Of a DNA stretch of 42,649 nucleotides, positions 11,361 to 36,929 are shown in pieces; position 1 is the stretch's first letter; each line of letters starts with the position of its first letter. This DNA is from Chitinophagaceae bacterium (GTDB taxonomy: Bacteria; Bacteroidota; Bacteroidia; Chitinophagales; Chitinophagaceae): positions 1 through 42,649 of the forward strand of contig JANWIY010000116.1 of NCBI GenBank assembly GCA_025449645.1, in the 5' to 3' direction. A model generated the notes under the pieces. It was not told the DNA's origin, made no database searches, and was given only the letters and a program-made list of their open reading frames with translations. A program made the translations under genes and the position numbers.

Positions 11361-12275
11361 ATGGCTCAAATTCCACCTTATTTGTCCGCTGGCGATACAA
11401 TCGGTATCGTTTGTCCCGGCGGATATATGTCGGCCGAAAACACGGCTCAATGCGCGGCTACCCTCACTGAATGGGGATTTAAGGTAAGAACGGGCAGGAC
11501 GGTTGGCGGAGATTCCACCAACTATTTTTCCGGAACGGATGAAGAGCGTCTGGCTGACCTGCAGTCCATGCTGGATGATGAGGAAGTAAACGCCATTTTG
11601 TTTTGCCGTGGCGGATACGGTATCGGGCGCATCATAGAGCAGATAAGCTTTAAACGGTTTCGTAAATCACCCAAATGGATCCTCGGTTACAGCGATATCA
11701 CCTTGCTCCACGCCCATATTTACACTAATTACGATATTGCTACCGCACATTCTCCGATGGCAGGCGCTTTCAATGAAAAACCGGAGCCTAATAAATATAT
11801 CCATTCAATTTATGAATTGCTCACGGGCAAACCGGCATCTTATACCTGCGAACCACATCCTTTCAATCGCAGGGGCGAAGTAAAAGCTGTACTCGCCGGC
11901 GGTAACCTGACATTGCTGGCTCATGCTATTGGTGGTTCATCGGATCTTAAAGCCAAGGGTTGCCTGCTTTTTCTGGAAGACATTGGCGAATATCTTTATA
12001 ACATCGACCGTATGCTTTATCAGTTAAAACGTGCGGGAAAACTTCATAAACCCGAGGGGATCATCATCGGCAGCTTTACGGATTGCAAGGACACGGAAAG
12101 ACCATTTGGAAAGAATGCCTACGAAATCATCCGGGATGTGCTGGATGAATTCGATTACCCCGTTTGTTTTGGCTTTCCTGTAGGACACGCAATGGAAAAT
12201 TTTGCGCTGAAATGCGGCGTGGAGTATAGGTTGAAAGTTGGAAACAATAAGGTTTCGCTTTCGGAAGTAGGGTAG
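11361..12275 (+). CDS. LD-carboxypeptidase (peptidase S66), cytoplasmic form
   Basis: This 304-residue S66 peptidase has no signal peptide. The triad is Ser111 (GYSD), Glu206 (FLEDIGE) and His276 (FPVGH). FCRGGYGIGR precedes the nucleophile region. It is a clear tandem paralogue of the gene ending at 11359; both share the IPPYL..GD.IGI opening, the fold landmarks and the ALKCGV ending. The 1-nt spacing suggests translational coupling. Cytoplasmic LdcA enzymes recycle murein tetrapeptide to tripeptide, a plausible role here. The stop codon is followed after one base by the heptamer array 12277-12444. Confidence 0.93.
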   Translation: MAQIPPYLSAGDTIGIVCPGGYMSAENTAQCAATLTEWGFKVRTGRTVGGDSTNYFSGTDEERLADLQSMLDDEEVNAILFCRGGYGIGRIIEQISFKRFRKSPKWILGYSDITLLHAHIYTNYDIATAHSPMAGAFNEKPEPNKYIHSIYELLTGKPASYTCEPHPFNRRGEVKAVLAGGNLTLLAHAIGGSSDLKAKGCLLFLEDIGEYLYNIDRMLYQLKRAGKLHKPEGIIIGSFTDCKDTERPFGKNAYEIIRDVLDEFDYPVCFGFPVGHAMENFALKCGVEYRLKVGNNKVSLSEVG

Positions 12276-12276
12276 C

Positions 12277-12513
12277 GAGTTATGAGTTATGAGTTATGGT
12301 TTATGAGTTATGAGTTATGGATTATAAGTTATGGTTTATGAGTTATGGTTTATGAGTTATGGGTTACGGATTATGAGTTATGGTTTATGAGTTATGGATT
12401 ATGAGTTTTGGGTTATGAGTTATGGATTATGGATGAGGGATTATGGGCCTGGTCAGTCTTGTCAATCTGATTCCGGGGACCTGGCATAATTCATAACCCA
12501 TAACTCATAACCC
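12277..12513 (+). repeat. Heptamer tandem array with inverted arm, locus 1
   Basis: Twenty-four consecutive 7-bp units fill 12277-12444 in strict 7-nt phase. The commonest unit is GAGTTAT; variants are GGTTTAT, GGATTAT, GGGTTAT, AAGTTAT, GAGTTTT and GGATGAG. The first G and the TTAT are mostly fixed while positions 2-3 vary. After a 41-nt unique stretch, four units in the opposite orientation (ATAATTC, ATAACCC, ATAACTC, ATAACCC) occupy 12486-12513. The opposing arms could pair into a hairpin. The array begins 1 nt after the stop of the LD-carboxypeptidase. Units also occur at 13334-13523 and 28096-28191. Confidence 0.97.
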
Positions 12514-12556
12514 GATAACTCCTCCATTTTCAAATTATTTAATTTTCAAATTACCC

Positions 12557-13333
12557 ATGCGCTTTATCAGAAAATTCCTTCTTCTCACATTTGGTGAAAA
12601 GCGCTATCTCTGGTTGCTGGCAACCACTTTTCAAAAATTATACAGGACCGGCAGCCTTGGGGTCGATTATCAGGATATTTATTTTTTGAAGAACCTGATC
12701 AGGCGGGGAGACCAGTGTATAGATATTGGCGCTCACCTGGGCTATTTTACTCTTGAGCTGAGCCGGCTTACGGGAAGTAACGGGCACGTATATGCGATCG
12801 AGCCCATGTCCAAGTTTTTCCGGACCCTGGAATCCCTGATCAGAAAGCGGAAGATCCGCAATGTGACCCTGGAGCAATACGCCATGGGTGGTGAAGGGGA
12901 ATATGTGGAAATGGGTATTCCCCTGGTAAACAAGACCAAAAAATTTGCCTATGCGCGCGCGGTTCAGTACAATACATTTCTTGAATATGTGGAATCGGAA
13001 AAGGTAAGGAACTTACGGGGTGATGAACACTTTGGGCACCTCCTGCGCGTTGATTTCATCAAAGCGGATGTGGAAGGATTGGAGCTGGCAGTGTTGCAGT
13101 CATTCATGGAAATCATAAGGAAGCACCGGCCGGTCATTTTATGTGAGCTGGGTGACATTCGGGAGCGCGCACAGCTCCTGGAATTAATTCAGGGAAACGG
13201 ATACGGAATGTATTATCTGGAGAATAAGAAATTAAGACCAATGATGCCGGAAAGCTCCATTAAAACGGTTTCCCATAATCATTATTTCATTCCTGAAAAC
13301 AGACTTGGAAGTTTGAAGGAAGTGATTGGCTGA
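12557..13333 (+). CDS. FkbM family SAM-dependent methyltransferase
   Basis: This 258-residue protein has SAM-binding motif I DIGAHLGYF at 56-64 and the acidic post-motif VYAIEP (Glu82). The FkbM hallmark FIKADVEGLELAVLQ lies in the C-terminal half, followed by ILCELG. FkbM-type enzymes O-methylate sugars or polyketides, so modification of a surface glycan is possible, but no glycan cluster is adjacent. The start ATG follows an AT-rich leader. The gene stands alone between two heptamer arrays (12277-12513 and 13334-13523), the second abutting its stop codon directly. Confidence 0.88.
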   Translation: MRFIRKFLLLTFGEKRYLWLLATTFQKLYRTGSLGVDYQDIYFLKNLIRRGDQCIDIGAHLGYFTLELSRLTGSNGHVYAIEPMSKFFRTLESLIRKRKIRNVTLEQYAMGGEGEYVEMGIPLVNKTKKFAYARAVQYNTFLEYVESEKVRNLRGDEHFGHLLRVDFIKADVEGLELAVLQSFMEIIRKHRPVILCELGDIRERAQLLELIQGNGYGMYYLENKKLRPMMPESSIKTVSHNHYFIPENRLGSLKEVIG

Positions 13334-13523
13334 GAATTATGGGTTATGAATTATGAGTTATGAGTTATGAGCTGTTTTCCTCGGGAAGGATAAATAAATA
13401 ATTATCAATGCATAAATCATAATTCGGGTCCAAAATACAATAATTCATAACCCATAACCCATAACCCATAACCCATAACTCAAAACCCATCACCCATCAC
13501 CCACAACCCAGATCCCAGATCCC
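13334..13523 (+). repeat. Heptamer array with inverted arm, locus 2 (between convergent genes)
   Basis: Five units (GAATTAT, GGGTTAT, GAATTAT, GAGTTAT, GAGTTAT) occupy 13334-13368, beginning directly after the stop codon of the FkbM gene. In the opposite orientation, two units lie at 13412-13425 and twelve contiguous units at 13440-13523. The twelve run from ATAATTC through four ATAACCC and decay through ATCACCC and ACAACCC to AGATCCC. The second arm ends 7 nt before the kup stop codon. Read on the kup strand it again runs GGGTTAT away from the stop, so both genes carry the repeat downstream in sense orientation. It may serve as a bidirectional transcript end. Confidence 0.95.
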
Positions 13524-13530
13524 ACTTTCC

Positions 13531-15492
13531 TCAATTCTCCCCCGTTCTCTTTAAATTCAAATCGGGCAGGGGCGAAACAATGAGCGGAAACTTTTCGATC
13601 GTAACATTGGATGGATCCAGACCGAATCCGCGTTCTTCGGAAAGGCTGACTTCTTTGAGCCAGAAATATAATTTCATTATGATCCTTTCAATAAAGGGAA
13701 GTTCATTATCCTGGCTCAGGTATTTTTCCATCACGATGATCTGGAAATCGCCTACGACATTATTTCTTTCCAGGGATTCATAGCGGCTCGTAATATTTAC
13801 TTCTTTATTTTTAACCAGGTCCTCAACAACTTTTCGGAACATGAGGTTGATTTTCGGCTCAATTCTGAAACCAAGCCTGAATTCCACCCGGATGATGTCG
13901 TTCGGTATGATATGCTCTACGGAGTATTCCGCCGTGTAGGGATCATCGAGCGTATCAATATGTACGAACCAATAAATATCAGCTCGTTTGGGTTTTTTAT
14001 TCAGGATGGAATAAATGATCTTATGTTCGATTTCCTTAGGATTGTTTGCACTGGTCATGTACATCAGGTGGGTTGTAAACTTCGGAACGGTGCGATCATT
14101 ACTCAGCTCCTGTATCTGCGGCAGATAATTTTCCATCCGAACGAATTCCACATATCTGTTTTTGATTTTTCGGGAACGGAACCACACATACATGATAATC
14201 GAAAGGGCGCCACCCACGATCAGGGTCACAAAACCGCCGTGTGGAAATTTTTCAAGATTGGCGAAGAGAAAACTGAATTCGATGATCAGGTATACAGTCA
14301 GGTACAGATAGATAAACCCCGAGCGTGCCCGTCGCGAAATCAGGTAATTGGCAAAAAGAATGGAAGTGGCCAGCATGCAGAGCGTAATGGCCAGCCCGTA
14401 TGCTGCTACCATATGCGAGGAGGACCGGAAATAAATCGTTATTCCGCAACAACCGATGAACAGAAGGAAGTTGATTGCAGGAATATAAAGTTGCCCTTTT
14501 TGTTCCGTTGGATAACTGATACGGAATTTTGGCCAGAGGTTAAGGCGCATGGCCTCACTGATCAGCGTAAAGGATCCGCTGATCAGGGCCTGGCTGGCAA
14601 TAATGGCCGCAGCCGTGGCGATGAGGATGCCTGGTATGAGGAACCAGGCCGGCATGATGCTATAGAAAACATTGTTGTGGCCGGTATCGAAAATTTGCCC
14701 CATATGCGAGTGAAGAAGCCACGCCCCCTGGCCGAGATAGTTCAATACCAGGCAGGTCTTCACGTAGATCCAGGATACGCGGATATTACTTCTTCCCACG
14801 TGGCCCAGGTCTGAGTACAATGCTTCTGCACCCGTAGTACAAAGGAACACGGCACCGAGAAGCCAGAACCCCTTAGGGTAGAGCGTGAGCAGTTCAATAG
14901 CATAAACCGGACTCAGCGCTTTAAAAATCTGAAGGTCATCCAGCAGGTGACCGCTTCCCAATACAGCCATCATGGCGAACCAGATGAACATGATGGGACC
15001 GAATAATTTTCCTATGGACTGTGTTCCGAATTGCTGCAAAAAAAAGAGCACTACCATAATGCCCAATACAATATAAACGATCGTGTCTTCCGGAATATAA
15101 TCCAGGGTAGGTAGCTGACGCAACCCTTCAATGGCCGAGGTAACAGAGATCGGTGGAGTGATCATACCATCGGCGAGCAGGGCTGCACCGCCGATCATGG
15201 CCGGCAAAACCAGCCATCTTTTCTGCCGTCGTACAAGGGCATACAGGGAAAAGATTCCACCCTCTCCCTTATTGTCTGCCTTCAGCGTTAGCCAAACATA
15301 TTTAATTGTAGTCTGCAGGGTGAGTGTCCATATAATACAGGAAAGGCTGCCAAGAATCAGCATTTCAGAAACAACCCTGCCGCTAACGATCGCGTTTAAT
15401 ACATAAAGAGGGGAGGTGCCGATATCTCCGTAAATAATACCTAAAGCAATGACCAATGTGGCCAGCGTGACCTTATTAATTTGTTTGCTCAC
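13531..15492 (-). CDS. kup: KUP/HAK-type potassium uptake protein
   Basis: This 653-residue inner-membrane transporter has about 12 hydrophobic segments in the first 440 residues and a soluble C-terminal domain. The N-terminal family signature GIIYGDIGTSPLYVL is present near residues 18-32, and GAALLADGMITPPISV follows around 103-118. E. coli Kup has 622 residues, so the length is normal. It should import K+ with H+. The start codon is GTG (15492); no ATG lies near. Upstream it diverges from the secreted-protein gene at 15662. Its 3' end faces the heptamer array 13334-13523. Confidence 0.95.
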   Translation of the reverse strand: MSKQINKVTLATLVIALGIIYGDIGTSPLYVLNAIVSGRVVSEMLILGSLSCIIWTLTLQTTIKYVWLTLKADNKGEGGIFSLYALVRRQKRWLVLPAMIGGAALLADGMITPPISVTSAIEGLRQLPTLDYIPEDTIVYIVLGIMVVLFFLQQFGTQSIGKLFGPIMFIWFAMMAVLGSGHLLDDLQIFKALSPVYAIELLTLYPKGFWLLGAVFLCTTGAEALYSDLGHVGRSNIRVSWIYVKTCLVLNYLGQGAWLLHSHMGQIFDTGHNNVFYSIMPAWFLIPGILIATAAAIIASQALISGSFTLISEAMRLNLWPKFRISYPTEQKGQLYIPAINFLLFIGCCGITIYFRSSSHMVAAYGLAITLCMLATSILFANYLISRRARSGFIYLYLTVYLIIEFSFLFANLEKFPHGGFVTLIVGGALSIIMYVWFRSRKIKNRYVEFVRMENYLPQIQELSNDRTVPKFTTHLMYMTSANNPKEIEHKIIYSILNKKPKRADIYWFVHIDTLDDPYTAEYSVEHIIPNDIIRVEFRLGFRIEPKINLMFRKVVEDLVKNKEVNITSRYESLERNNVVGDFQIIVMEKYLSQDNELPFIERIIMKLYFWLKEVSLSEERGFGLDPSNVTIEKFPLIVSPLPDLNLKRTGEN

Positions 15493-18169: not shown

Positions 18170-18217
18170 TTTCCCCATTCGCAGGAAAGAATTATCTTTA
18201 TCCTGTAATTCTTCCAC

Positions 18218-20878: not shown

Positions 20879-20883
20879 ACAAA

Positions 20884-20946
20884 ACTTCCGGTGACAAAGT
20901 GAACTCTTTTATTGAGGATCCTCCGGCACCGGAAGTAAATCAAAAA
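20884..20946. terminator. Inverted repeat between convergent dsbD-like and sigma factor genes
   Basis: A perfect 10-bp inverted repeat, ACTTCCGGTG at 20884-20893 and CACCGGAAGT at 20937-20946, brackets 43 nt in the short space between two convergent genes. It could form a stem that ends transcripts from either side. It lacks the compact loop and clear U-tract of a textbook intrinsic terminator, so that role is an inference from position. Confidence 0.5.
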
Positions 20947-20976
20947 TTTTGCTGAAAAAAGAATGTAAAATTGAAC

Positions 20977-27092: not shown

Positions 27093-28091
27093 ATGAAAGC
27101 AATCATTCCCGTAGCTGGCGCCGGCACAAAATTACGACCGCATACCTATACCCAACCAAAAGCGCTGATTCCGCTGGCCGGCAAGACCATACTGAGCATT
27201 ATCGTTGATCAGCTGCTTGAAGCGGGCATCACCGAATTTATTTTTATTGTCGGATACCTGGGCACCAAGATCCAGGATTATGTTGTAGACAAATATCCGG
27301 GCCTGAATGCCCGTTTTGTTTTTCAGAATGAAAGACACGGGATTGGTCATGCAATCCTTTTAACAAAAGACCTGGTTGGTGACGATGAAATATTCATTGT
27401 GCTGGGGGATACGATTTGCGAATACGATACCCGCTCGGTTCTTGAAAAACAGGTTTCCACACTGGGCGTGAAAAGAGTGGATGATCCCAGAGATTTTGGC
27501 GTAGCTGAAATTGAGGAAGATGGATTTATCAGCCTGGTTGTAGAAAAACCACAAATTCCAAAATCCAATATGGCGCTTGTAGGTATTTACCGCATCCGGG
27601 AAACTTCGCTTCTGTTTAGCTGTCTCGAGAGCAATATCAAGAGTCAGCTTACGAGTTACGGAGAATATAACCTGACGGACGCGATTGAATGCATGATCCG
27701 CAACGGAGTGAAATTTGAATCATTCAAAGTGCAGAACTGGTTTGACTGCGGTAAAAAAGAAACCCTGCTGGAATCCAACGCCAAACTGCTCAAGAAATTC
27801 GGAAGTAATATTGCGCCGGATCACCAGCTGGAAAATACCATTATCATTCATCCTGTAAATATTGCATCCGGATGTGATATCAAAAATTCCATCATCGGAC
27901 CGAATGTGGCGATAGGCGAAAAAACTTCAGTCAACTATTCTATCATCAAGGATTCTATTATCGGGTCTTTCGCAGACCTGTTCGATATTGTGCTCACCCA
28001 TTCTCTCATTGGAAGTGATACGGAAGTAAAAGGTGAAAGCAGAAGTTTAAATATCGGGGACAATACGGAGATTGATTTGGGGGAAAGCTGA
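27093..28091 (+). CDS. Sugar-phosphate nucleotidyltransferase with C-terminal left-handed beta-helix
   Basis: This 332-residue enzyme has the nucleotidyltransferase signature GAGTKLRPHTYTQPKALIPLAG (residues 9-30, including Lys23). The metal-binding region VLGDTICE is near 108-115, and GEYNLTDAIE lies in the sugar-binding half. From about 250 the sequence shows hexapeptide-like I-I-G-x-N/F repeats (IIHPVNIASGCDIKNSIIGPNVAIG) of a left-handed beta-helix. Such enzymes make NDP-sugars (glucose-1-phosphate thymidylyl- or uridylyltransferase type) for surface glycans. The exact base and sugar cannot be told. The stop codon is followed after 4 nt by a heptamer repeat array. Confidence 0.9.
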   Translation: MKAIIPVAGAGTKLRPHTYTQPKALIPLAGKTILSIIVDQLLEAGITEFIFIVGYLGTKIQDYVVDKYPGLNARFVFQNERHGIGHAILLTKDLVGDDEIFIVLGDTICEYDTRSVLEKQVSTLGVKRVDDPRDFGVAEIEEDGFISLVVEKPQIPKSNMALVGIYRIRETSLLFSCLESNIKSQLTSYGEYNLTDAIECMIRNGVKFESFKVQNWFDCGKKETLLESNAKLLKKFGSNIAPDHQLENTIIIHPVNIASGCDIKNSIIGPNVAIGEKTSVNYSIIKDSIIGSFADLFDIVLTHSLIGSDTEVKGESRSLNIGDNTEIDLGES

Positions 28092-28095
28092 GGAG

Positions 28096-28191
28096 GAGTT
28101 ATGGATTATGAATTATGAGTTATGGGTGGAGAACAGGAGTTACGGGTGGAGAATTATGATTTTAGAACTCATAACCCATAATTCATAATCC
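28096..28191 (+). repeat. Heptamer array with inverted arm, locus 3 (between convergent genes)
   Basis: Units GAGTTAT, GGATTAT, GAATTAT and GAGTTAT occupy 28096-28123. After a GGGTGGA-containing interruption, GAGTTAC (28137-28143), GGGTGGA and GAATTAT (28151-28157) follow. The inverted arm carries ATAACCC, ATAATTC and ATAATCC at 28171-28191. The array fills the space between the nucleotidyltransferase stop (28091) and the stop of the convergent gene at 28201, leaving 4 and 9 nt. The units match those at 12277-12513 and 13334-13523 and point away from both stop codons. Confidence 0.92.
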
Positions 28192-28200
28192 TTAACTAAC

Positions 28201-28614
28201 CTACTTCATTCCCAAAATCCGAAGCAACGGGTATTCTGAATCATCGGGGAGGAGTTCGCCCGAATCCGGGAGTACTTCAACATTGATCTTCACGGTCTTT
28301 TTTTCTGTAATATCAATGACATCCTGGTACTTATATTTCTGATATCCTTTCTTCTCAAAGCGGAGATTAACATGGTTTGAGGGCAGCTGTTTAAAATAAT
28401 AATACCCTTCATTATCGGTGATGGTAGCTTCGCTTGGGTTGGTATTTCCGGAAACTTCTGCAGAAACCAATACACCGGAAACCGGCTTTTTGGTTATGGC
28501 ATCCACCACCTGGCCCCGAATGAGGCAGGGGCCGGATTTCCCATTACTTGCAAACAGGCTGCAGGTTAAGAAGGAAACAACGATCAGAAAAAACAGACCA
28601 AGATACTTTTTCAT
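28201..28614 (-). CDS. Secreted carboxypeptidase-regulatory-like domain protein
   Basis: This 137-residue protein has a signal peptide (about 1-23, ending SLFAS) and a single beta-sandwich of the CarboxypepD_reg type (about 30-112). Hallmarks are IRGQVVDAITKKPVSGVLV and TITDNEGYYYFKQLP. In Bacteroidota this domain is common at the N-terminus of SusC-like receptors, but here it stands alone. Its start overlaps the stop of the nitronate monooxygenase gene by 4 nt (ATGA), indicating translational coupling. No enzymatic role is expected; it may bind or stabilise an envelope partner. Confidence 0.85.
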   Translation of the reverse strand: MKKYLGLFFLIVVSFLTCSLFASNGKSGPCLIRGQVVDAITKKPVSGVLVSAEVSGNTNPSEATITDNEGYYYFKQLPSNHVNLRFEKKGYQKYKYQDVIDITEKKTVKINVEVLPDSGELLPDDSEYPLLRILGMK

Positions 28615-34959: not shown

Positions 34960-36393
34960 ATGCCGAAAACCTTTGAAAAAGTCTGGACCAATTGTCTCGA
35001 AATAATAAAAGATATTGTAGAGTGGCAACATTTCAAAACCTGGTTTGAACCCATTCGTCCGGTTGAATTGAAAGAGCAAATTTTGGTGATCCAGGTTCCG
35101 AGTCAGTTTTTTTATGAATACCTGGAAGAGCATTATGTGAATTTATTGGCAAAAACATTGCGAAGGATTTTGGGCAAGGAAGCGAGGCTTGAATACCGGA
35201 TTATGGTAGATAGCGGGAATCAGCAAAACAAACCTTTAACCATGGATGTTCCGGCACACAGCTATAAAACAATTTCAAATAATGAAATGGATTTTCCCCT
35301 GATTATCAATAATCCGGTCAAAAATCCATTTGTTATTCCCGGGCTCAAGAAAATGCAGATTGATTCCCAGTTGAATCCTGTTTATACTTTTGATGCTTTT
35401 ATAGAAGGTGATTGCAACCGGGTTGCCCGCAGGGCCGGGAAAACGGTTGCCGAGAAGCCCGGCGCTAATTCCTTTAATCCGCTTGTCATCTATGGCGGGG
35501 TAGGGTTGGGCAAAACTCATCTGGCTCAGGCCATAGGGAATGAGGTGCGGAGGACGCTTCACAACAAAGTGGTTTTATACGTGAGTTCCGAGAAGTTTAT
35601 CAATCAGTTTATTGATCACAGCCGGAACAACGCCGTGAATGATTTCATTCATTTTTACCAATTGGTGGACGTGCTGATCATCGATGATGTGCAGTTCTTC
35701 AACCGGGCAGAGAGATCGCAGGACGCTTTTTTTGCCATATTCAACCACCTGCATCAGTCGGGCAAGCAATTGATACTGACCTCGGATAAGCCCCCCAAAG
35801 ATCTCGAGGGTGTTCAGGAAAGGCTGCTGAGCCGGTTCCGCTGGGGCCTGAGCGCTGACCTCCAGGTACCTGATTATGAAACCCGGATCGAGATCCTGGA
35901 AAGGAAAATGAAGAATGATGGGTTGGAAATGCCCAAGGAAGTGGTTAAATACCTTGCTTATAACATTAACAGCAATGTGCGGGAACTCGAAGGCGCATTG
36001 ATATCTCTTCTGGCACAATCTTCGCTAAACAAGAGGGAAATTGACCTGGAATTGTCGAAGAAAGTGTTAAGAAATTTTGTGAAGACGAGCAGTAAGGAAA
36101 TTACGATTGAAACTATTCAGCGGATGGTATGCGAATATTTCGATCTTCCTTATGATAAGCTGCTCCAGAAGACGAGGAAGAGGGAGATCGTGCAGGCCCG
36201 GCAGATCACCATGTATCTTGCCAAGGCATTTACCAAAAACTCTTTGAAAACTATCGGAGAGCATTTCGGAGGAAGAGACCATACTACAGTGATCCATTCC
36301 TGCCAGACCGTCAAGGATCTGATGGATACCGACAGCCTGTTTCGCGAAAACGTAACCGAACTACAGCAGAAAGTACAGCTGGCGGCCATGTAG
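34960..36393 (+). CDS. dnaA: Chromosomal replication initiator protein DnaA
   Basis: This 477-residue initiator ATPase has an N-terminal helicase-interaction domain (about 1-80: FEKVWTNCLEIIKD...FKTWFEPI). A variable linker follows, then the AAA+ domain from about 140. Walker A is GGVGLGKT (179-186), Walker B is LIIDD (239-243), and sensor/arginine-finger region ERLLSRFRWGL is present. The C-terminal DNA-binding domain carries GGRDHTTV (437-444), which reads DnaA boxes. Length and order are typical. A strong intrinsic terminator follows at 36423-36447. No recF, dnaN or gyrB lies beside it, consistent with the scattered replication genes of many Bacteroidota. Confidence 0.97.
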   Translation: MPKTFEKVWTNCLEIIKDIVEWQHFKTWFEPIRPVELKEQILVIQVPSQFFYEYLEEHYVNLLAKTLRRILGKEARLEYRIMVDSGNQQNKPLTMDVPAHSYKTISNNEMDFPLIINNPVKNPFVIPGLKKMQIDSQLNPVYTFDAFIEGDCNRVARRAGKTVAEKPGANSFNPLVIYGGVGLGKTHLAQAIGNEVRRTLHNKVVLYVSSEKFINQFIDHSRNNAVNDFIHFYQLVDVLIIDDVQFFNRAERSQDAFFAIFNHLHQSGKQLILTSDKPPKDLEGVQERLLSRFRWGLSADLQVPDYETRIEILERKMKNDGLEMPKEVVKYLAYNINSNVRELEGALISLLAQSSLNKREIDLELSKKVLRNFVKTSSKEITIETIQRMVCEYFDLPYDKLLQKTRKREIVQARQITMYLAKAFTKNSLKTIGEHFGGRDHTTVIHSCQTVKDLMDTDSLFRENVTELQQKVQLAAM

Positions 36394-36838: not shown

Positions 36839-36929
36839 GGAGAGGTGCCTGAGTGGCCGAAAGGGCCGGTTTGCTAAACCGTTATACGAGCTTAAACTTG
36901 TATCGAGGGTTCGAATCCCTCCCTCTCCG
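36839..36929 (+). tRNA. tRNA-Ser (anticodon GCT)
   Basis: The acceptor arms GGAGAGG (36839-36845) and CCTCTCC (36922-36928) pair fully, with discriminator G36929. The anticodon loop TTGCTAA (36871-36877) has anticodon GCT, reading AGC/AGU serine codons. A long variable arm TACGAG/CTTGTA marks a class II tRNA, as expected for serine. The T arm is GAGGG-TTCGAAT-CCCTC (36905-36921). The CCA end is not encoded; the next bases are CTG. Confidence 0.97.

Follow-up and report, generated by a model that had tools for sequence, protein, structure and literature searches.

A 24-unit heptamer array in a Chitinophagaceae genome, probably one arm of a palindromic repeat dispersed between genes

The 42,649-nucleotide stretch of contig JANWIY010000116.1 of a Chitinophagaceae bacterium (assembly GCA_025449645.1), hereafter the window, carries just behind a stop codon an array of 24 heptamers of the GRNTTAT type. 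In our judgment, this array is probably the long arm of a slippage-expanded, dispersed palindromic intergenic repeat, an element of a broadly known kind with a conserved core that is unusual. The build of such elements, in which a loop separates a purine-rich arm of 7- or 8-nt units from an inverted one, recurs at many intergenic sites, and both the dispersal of the elements and their turnover could be observed; slippage, for its part, is suggested by a 49-bp repeat within the long arm and by the unequal length of the two arms.

Direct reading and position-matrix scoring agreed on 24 units in a single 7-nt phase at 12277-12444, the number given in the first-pass annotation of this DNA, which had also recognized the four reversed units beyond a 41-nt loop and the start of the array 1 nt past the stop codon, a TAG at 12273-12275 (Table 1). 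An additional imperfect reverse unit extends to about position 12521. The first letter is G in 23 of the 24 forward-arm units and positions 2 and 3 are variable, while TTAT is kept in 21 units, the exceptions being GGGTTAC, GAGTTTT and GGATGAG; GGGTTAT and GGGTTAC account for one unit each, and on the minus strand the units read TAACTCA, TAACCCA, TAATCCA and similar. Moreover, the forward arm forms a higher-order repeat of 49 bp, or 7 units (3.2 copies, 87% matches), an internal duplication that supports the slippage expansion proposed by the same annotation. These unit counts hold for the genome as assembled, a draft of 190 contigs. Ahead of the methyltransferase start, an AT-rich TTTTCAAA-type stretch (12515-12558) has counterparts on seven further contigs of this assembly, and in the relative G019 a palindrome of the TTTTCAAA-type motif is located 3' of the LD-carboxypeptidase gene.

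Table 1. Heptamer elements of the window and their neighbouring genes
Feature	Position	Strand	Basis
Upstream gene, LD-carboxypeptidase (peptidase S66)	11361..12275	+	ORF
First element, forward arm, 24 GRNTTAT units with 49-bp higher-order repeat	12277..12444	+	reading, matrix, unit list
First element, 41-nt loop, loop family A	12445..12485	+	95% identity over 40 nt with the loop of an element on C173, another contig of this genome
First element, reverse arm, 4 GRNTTAT units in minus-strand reading	12486..12513	-	reading, matrix
Downstream gene, FkbM-type methyltransferase	12557..13333	+	ORF, domain
Second element, forward arm, directly after the gene ending at 13333	13334..13375	+	matrix
Second element, weak 4-unit reverse segment	13398..13425	reverse	matrix
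Second element, reverse arm, 10 units, with 21 nt between it and the end of the convergent Kup gene	13440..13509	-	matrix
Convergent gene, Kup-family potassium transporter	13531..15492	-	ORF, domain
Nucleotidyltransferase of sugar-nucleotide kind, before the third element	27093..28091	+	annotation
Third element, forward arm, 4 units	28096..28123	+	matrix
Third element, reverse arm, 5 units	28164..28198	-	matrix
Gene with a carboxypeptidase-regulatory-like domain, convergent, behind the third element	28201..28614	-	annotation

Besides the element at 12277-12513, the window contains two others, at 13334-13509 and 28096-28198, both between convergent genes. In the third, the two arms mirror each other in unit order, a likeness ranking 1 of 200 against unit shuffles. 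On reading the sequence, a T run directly behind the hairpin is absent after the reverse arms of all three elements. Elsewhere in the window, the convergent gap at 20879-20976 holds a ACTTCCGGTG...CACCGGAAGT hairpin, unlike the heptamer elements, with similar hairpins at the same place in G007 and G019; the dnaA gene (34960-36393) is followed by a gap with an ordinary T-tailed hairpin and, further on, by a tRNA match (36839-36929), and the domain search recorded a SusC-like match. Apart from one tRNA, no Rfam family reached the gathering score in the window.

Such arrays are frequent in this genome (G000). A three-unit pattern with at most one mismatch matched the window 35 times and none of 100 dinucleotide-preserving shuffles; the genome-wide count, which the first-pass annotation had proposed, gave 163 matches (92 + 71) compared to 0 in the reversed control, and the matches listed form at least about thirty clusters. 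The matrix scan of the window and 32 fetched stretches, taken from clusters among the matches listed, so that some clusters are possibly missing, returned 54 arms and, in reversed sequence at the same threshold, a single one. With gene calls throughout made by a simple codon model, called genes contain 3 of these arms and 51 are intergenic; thus, a scatter over random positions including the inside of genes, the pattern named beforehand as speaking against the annotation, was not seen. The outer arm edge is directed toward a stop codon in 35 of the 51 intergenic arms and toward a start in 15 (one has no neighbour), and 20 of the 35 stop-facing arms lie within 8 nt of the gene end or overlap it. 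Some elements sit between divergent genes. On contig C90 (locus L054, 4033-4109), about ten uniform GGGTTAT units occur with no reverse arm detected; a putative G-quadruplex is thinkable for that array, not for the array of the window.

Across genomes, the GRNTTAT unit family is patchy. A four-unit match was found in 6 of 39 genomes, namely, four of the genus (G000, G015, G017 and G019) and two from other families, G033 with 2 matches and G034 with 207 (83 + 124); the taxa among the matches listed at 80 named loci comprise Bacteroidota, cyanobacteria, Lentisphaerae and others. Together with the SusC-like match, these taxa would suggest Bacteroidota for the window, whose proteins had only distant matches when compared with the 80 loci. 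Wherever two arms lie within 200 nt, in the own genome, its relatives and the 80 named loci, their arrangement is mostly +- (46 pairs), sometimes ++ (9) or -- (5) and never -+. Furthermore, among the matches listed at the named loci, 66 of 96 intergenic arms are directed inward from the nearer gene and 30 are not (p 0.0003).

The same order extends to other unit families, several of which occur among the period-7 and period-8 tracts in sampled intergenic DNA of G000 and two congeners. In a set partly made of stretches chosen for elements, intergenic tracts comprised 118 of period 7 and 49 of period 8, with at most 4 for each of the periods 4-6 and 9-13 and with harmonics at periods 14 (28 tracts) and 16 (11); the genes, with ten times the bases, have no peak at period 7 or 8. 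When G000, G007 and G017 were sampled with 20 stretches apiece, picked by contig number, with C18 of G000 left out and L108 and L110 added, repeats of 12 nt lay mostly at a distance of 7 or 8, and none at 5, 6, 9 or 10. A rare period other than 7 or 8 was noticed in a convergent gap of G017 (L110, 10605-10796), with 11-nt tandem repeats (AACGATATACG). No 7- or 8-nt tract was present in three stretches of G003. Scored for purines over all families, 145 of 190 tracts are purine-rich inward from the nearer gene and 45 are not; next to stops the inward polarity holds for 89 of 114 tracts, and next to starts for 56 of 76. Of the pairs of neighbouring tracts, 54 run from purine to pyrimidine, 3 run the opposite way and 12 are alike. 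When G was scored against C, 115 of 155 tracts agreed with the inward polarity, and the 40 exceptions include families such as AAAGCCT and arms reaching past the middle of the gap. The two arms of one gap sometimes belong to different unit families.

Evidence for dispersal comes from C173, another contig of this genome, where positions 11781-11923 are 88% identical to 12371-12513 of the window, that is, to 143 bp comprising about ten units, the loop and the reverse arm. The similarity goes no further than the reverse arm's outer edge, and a DNA comparison of 1.1 kb around the window element with 8.1 kb of C173 gave matches confined to the element; by this element-bounded match, the window element is a dispersed one. 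When 10 genomes were queried, loop family A was found in G000 only, at two places (the window and C173), and loop family B in G000 and G019 only, and further loop families recur between different sites. The mirrored unit order is mixed, with 15 of 22 elements leaning toward it and 7 away (z sum about -13; the row for 13334 pairs the weak segment at 13398-13425, not the main reverse arm), and in the elements that have it, it fits fold-back copying or pairing.

Several arm families are linked by a palindromic core, which is an unusual feature of these elements. This 36-nt near-palindrome, with the consensus ATGGATnTCAGGTGCGGATTCGCACTnAAAGTCCAT, is common to loops with GGTTGAC, GGTTGAT, GGTATAT and GRNTTAT arms, the latter surrounding it at L050, L118, L124 and one gap of G019. 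Among 118 scored candidates per genome, the core model gave 103 matches in G000, 97 in G007 and 63 in G019, figures which count both strands of the palindromes and are not copy numbers, one match each in G017 and G027 (E 0.07 in the latter), and none in 53 of 58 genomes of the genus, family and order. In the three window elements the core is absent (best match, E 0.13). We inspected 33 copies, the best matches, from 29 loci with four extra copies at the same loci (L329 was dropped, with no match at 0.001). Of their left flanks, 29 show period 7, as do 31 of the right flanks, and 27 copies show it on both sides; it is the best period in 60 of the 66 flanks, in which no other best period occurred, compared to 11 of 1000 random 44-mers with period 7. 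None of the 33 copies lies in a called gene. The possibility that the core is a structured RNA was set aside, base-pair covariation not being clearly above that of shuffles, 48 of 500 of which reach the score.

Related species differ in what such gaps contain. Between the methyltransferase and Kup genes, the octamer AGTATAAG forms an almost perfect hairpin in G005, GACAATG heptamers form a short one in G007, CCATCAA heptamers are present in G019 (at a contig start), and the gap has no GRNTTAT arms in G015, G017 and G003. At 28092-28200, GRNTTAT arms are present in G019 (at a contig end) and in neither G007 nor G003. The turnover of the elements emerged from a comparison of 34 gaps in up to five species, with many entries missing and with two of the three regions chosen for carrying cores. 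The window gap 18170-18217 is 48 nt long in three of the species (G000, G019 and G007); in G017 its length is 243 nt and it carries GRNTTAT arms. At L355:5660-5855, a divergent gap, an element is present in G000 and G007 and a shorter element in G019, whereas G017 and G003 have 90 nt without an element. At L355:301-400, G000, G019 and G007 all have the core; the arms around it are of the GRNTTAT family in G019 and of the GGTATAT type in the other two, an arrangement suggesting that the core was kept while the arms were swapped, though separate insertions at the one gap may also have produced it. The element at L355:12689 is nearly identical in G000 and G019, and some copies are therefore stable; several of the compared gaps have no element in any species. 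At L355:8423 of G017, the arms flank a sequence that by eye resembles the terminator of G003; the loop would then be host sequence, which argues against a single copied unit there. Of the marks of a MITE, inverted arms and empty gaps were found, and by eye no target-site duplication was seen. The contigs C379, C10 and C181 of G019 end inside or beside repeats, in gaps orthologous to those of the window elements, so that the assembly breaks there; such gaps are one reason for the ends of draft contigs.

Taking the array as the long arm of a dispersed repeat, it is possible to hypothesize that copies of the elements enter the DNA between genes, which would be the least harmful place, and that their arms grow, shrink and are overwritten through replication slippage and exchange between copies, with a preferred slip length of 7 to 8 nt. 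Arms would abut stop codons because they cannot readily grow on into coding sequence. In transcripts, the elements would form hairpins, and RNA ends would perhaps be stabilised or insulated as a by-product. The strict polarity goes beyond what neutral growth alone explains, and it counts against the dispersed-repeat reading. So do the negative searches for a mover described below, the lack of the core in the window elements, a mirrored unit order that is not general, arms of different unit families in one gap, the apparent host sequence in a loop of G017 and the 45 of 190 tracts outside the inward polarity.

What had been a by-product there would be the purpose if the arrays were selected RNA elements, in which a long hairpin behind the stop codon shields or sets the 3' end and, where two genes converge, stops antisense transcription in both directions; we consider this unlikely. 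The placement of the arms speaks for it, 35 of the 51 intergenic arms facing a stop, often at a few nucleotides, as does the almost perfect octamer hairpin of G005. Furthermore, the three window elements have predicted RNA folds far better than those of shuffles (z of -8.1 for 12276-12525, -4.8 for 13334-13480 and -6.0 for 28092-28200), as would be expected of the structure-forming element that the first-pass annotation had envisaged; in 12276-12525, about half of the long forward arm pairs with itself instead of with the reverse arm. From these folds, it is possible that the hairpins of the window elements affect RNA. However, the inward polarity is equally found next to starts (56 of 76 tracts), elements are present between divergent genes, orthologous gaps are empty or differently filled, the covariation of the core does not clearly exceed that of shuffles, and the window has an ordinary T-tailed hairpin elsewhere, in the gap after 36393. 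The polarity at starts and the turnover of gaps argue that an RNA effect is not the cause of the arrays, and of the transcript-end signal suggested earlier there stands the orientation toward stops, offset by the same polarity at starts, the divergent gaps and the turnover. Arrays adjacent to stops are thus not safely read as terminators. A role of the C-rich arm as a candidate Rho loading site is unlikely where the arm is paired.

The 49-bp internal duplication, the inequality of the arms (24 and 4 units) and the elements without mirrored unit order would also suit a plain heptamer microsatellite, grown by slippage only, with inverted arms arising through local template switching and with no dispersal, and an earlier survey, as cited in the available text of PMC4679880, had heptamers as the most common class of long simple repeat in the majority of genomes. 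This explanation is already weakened by loops and a 36-nt core shared between different sites, as well as by the element-bounded 143-bp copy on C173, and we hold it to be quite unlikely. The paired arms strictly directed inward, the quantised unit length and the replacement of one unit family by another at one gap could instead point to a repeat-writing, telomerase-like enzyme adding templated 7- or 8-nt units to 3' ends, with arms running inward from the two sides of a break. RVT_1, the domain sought for telomerase-like or retron-like writing, occurs in 3 of 15 genomes, including, with one match each, G034, rich in GRNTTAT (83 + 124), and G003; however, it was not found in G000, G005, G007, G015, G017 and G019, the stretches of G003 lack 7- or 8-nt tracts despite its match, and loops of host sequence or a conserved core between the arms are unexpected from simple break healing, so that we find such an enzyme very improbable. 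Mobilisation of the RAYT or IS200 type was rejected as well: PF01797 (Y1), present in 15 of 23 genomes searched (G015, G017 and G019 were outside that search), was not found in G000 (86% complete), G003, G005 and G007 (99% complete). As a long shot, a cell function of the genus might build palindromic intergenic elements stepwise, 7 or 8 nt at a time, swap the arm units and keep the 36-nt core with neither Y1 nor reverse transcriptase; if true, repeat families would have a novel means of spreading and of rewriting themselves.

Tandem heptamers have long been noted in intergenic DNA, and the STRR sequences of cyanobacteria are heptamers of this kind in non-coding DNA, with a unit sequence different from that of the window; the likeness drawn by the first-pass annotation is in this respect a fair one. 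The known systems nearest to the dispersed repeat favoured here are REP-like repeats and the inverted GGGNATC heptamers of Xanthomonas. The GGGNATC and GGGGA(C/T)T heptamers of Xanthomonas and Nostoc are described in the available text of Rehm et al. 2015 (PMC4692102) as degenerate, intergenic arrays with 2 to 26 units, which on the sense strand lie near stops and on the antisense strand near starts; relatives mostly have them at the same gaps, where their length and sequence vary. Convergently oriented inverted pairs number 70 in Xcc and 75 in Xac, and the inward polarity and inverted pairs are thus already known for the Xanthomonas heptamers (PMC4692102). Our arms share this polarity (46 +- pairs and no -+ pair for GRNTTAT, 54 to 3 over all families). 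The Rehm-type unit forms G-quadruplexes, with four units preferred (PMC4692102), whereas the GRNTTAT units of the window mostly have no GGG run and do not resemble GGGNATC.

Further likenesses are partial. The TAACTGA heptamers treated in the available text of MacGregor 2015 (PMC4679880) are intergenic, also occur in some Bacteroidetes and cyanobacteria and form longer mixed heptamer arrays in some species; in the main species they are mostly short, direct and just upstream of start codons, with one inverted case. TAACTCA, a reading of GAGTTAT arrays, is one base away from them; the window unit is not TAACTGA, and the description of the TAACTGA repeats, as far as that text goes, has no loop core. 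The BrickBuilt MITE of Porphyromonas gingivalis is intergenic, with tandem repeats and inverted-repeat ends, but its unit has 23 nt, it has 19 copies in one strain, and its repeats lie inside the frame and do not form arms (PMC4596501, available text). REP/BIME sequences are described in the available text of Di Nocera et al. 2013 (PMC3733652) as palindromes of 20-40 bp with many copies in convergent or unidirectional gaps, often in pairs of opposite orientation. The 36-nt core of G000, G007 and G019 is likewise a many-copy intergenic palindrome, but it is absent from the three window elements; different from REP/BIME, no RAYT was found in G000 or G007, the arms are tandem heptamers, and the core consensus has no GTAG tag.

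Families of 7- and 8-nt units that coexist with a common polarity, a palindromic core shared between them and a swap of arms at one gap are not described in the available text of PMC4692102, PMC4679880, PMC4596501 and PMC3733652 or in the literature searched. The same four texts do not settle the origin or role of intergenic heptamers; the idea, reported in PMC4679880 and PMC4692102, is that their excess is due to the length of DNA contacting the polymerase. Different from the Rehm-type repeats, several 7- and 8-nt families coexist here, with a 36-nt core between the arms of some elements, and the genus displays empty, filled and arm-swapped gaps together with this linking core, so that the origin and spread of such repeats become testable.
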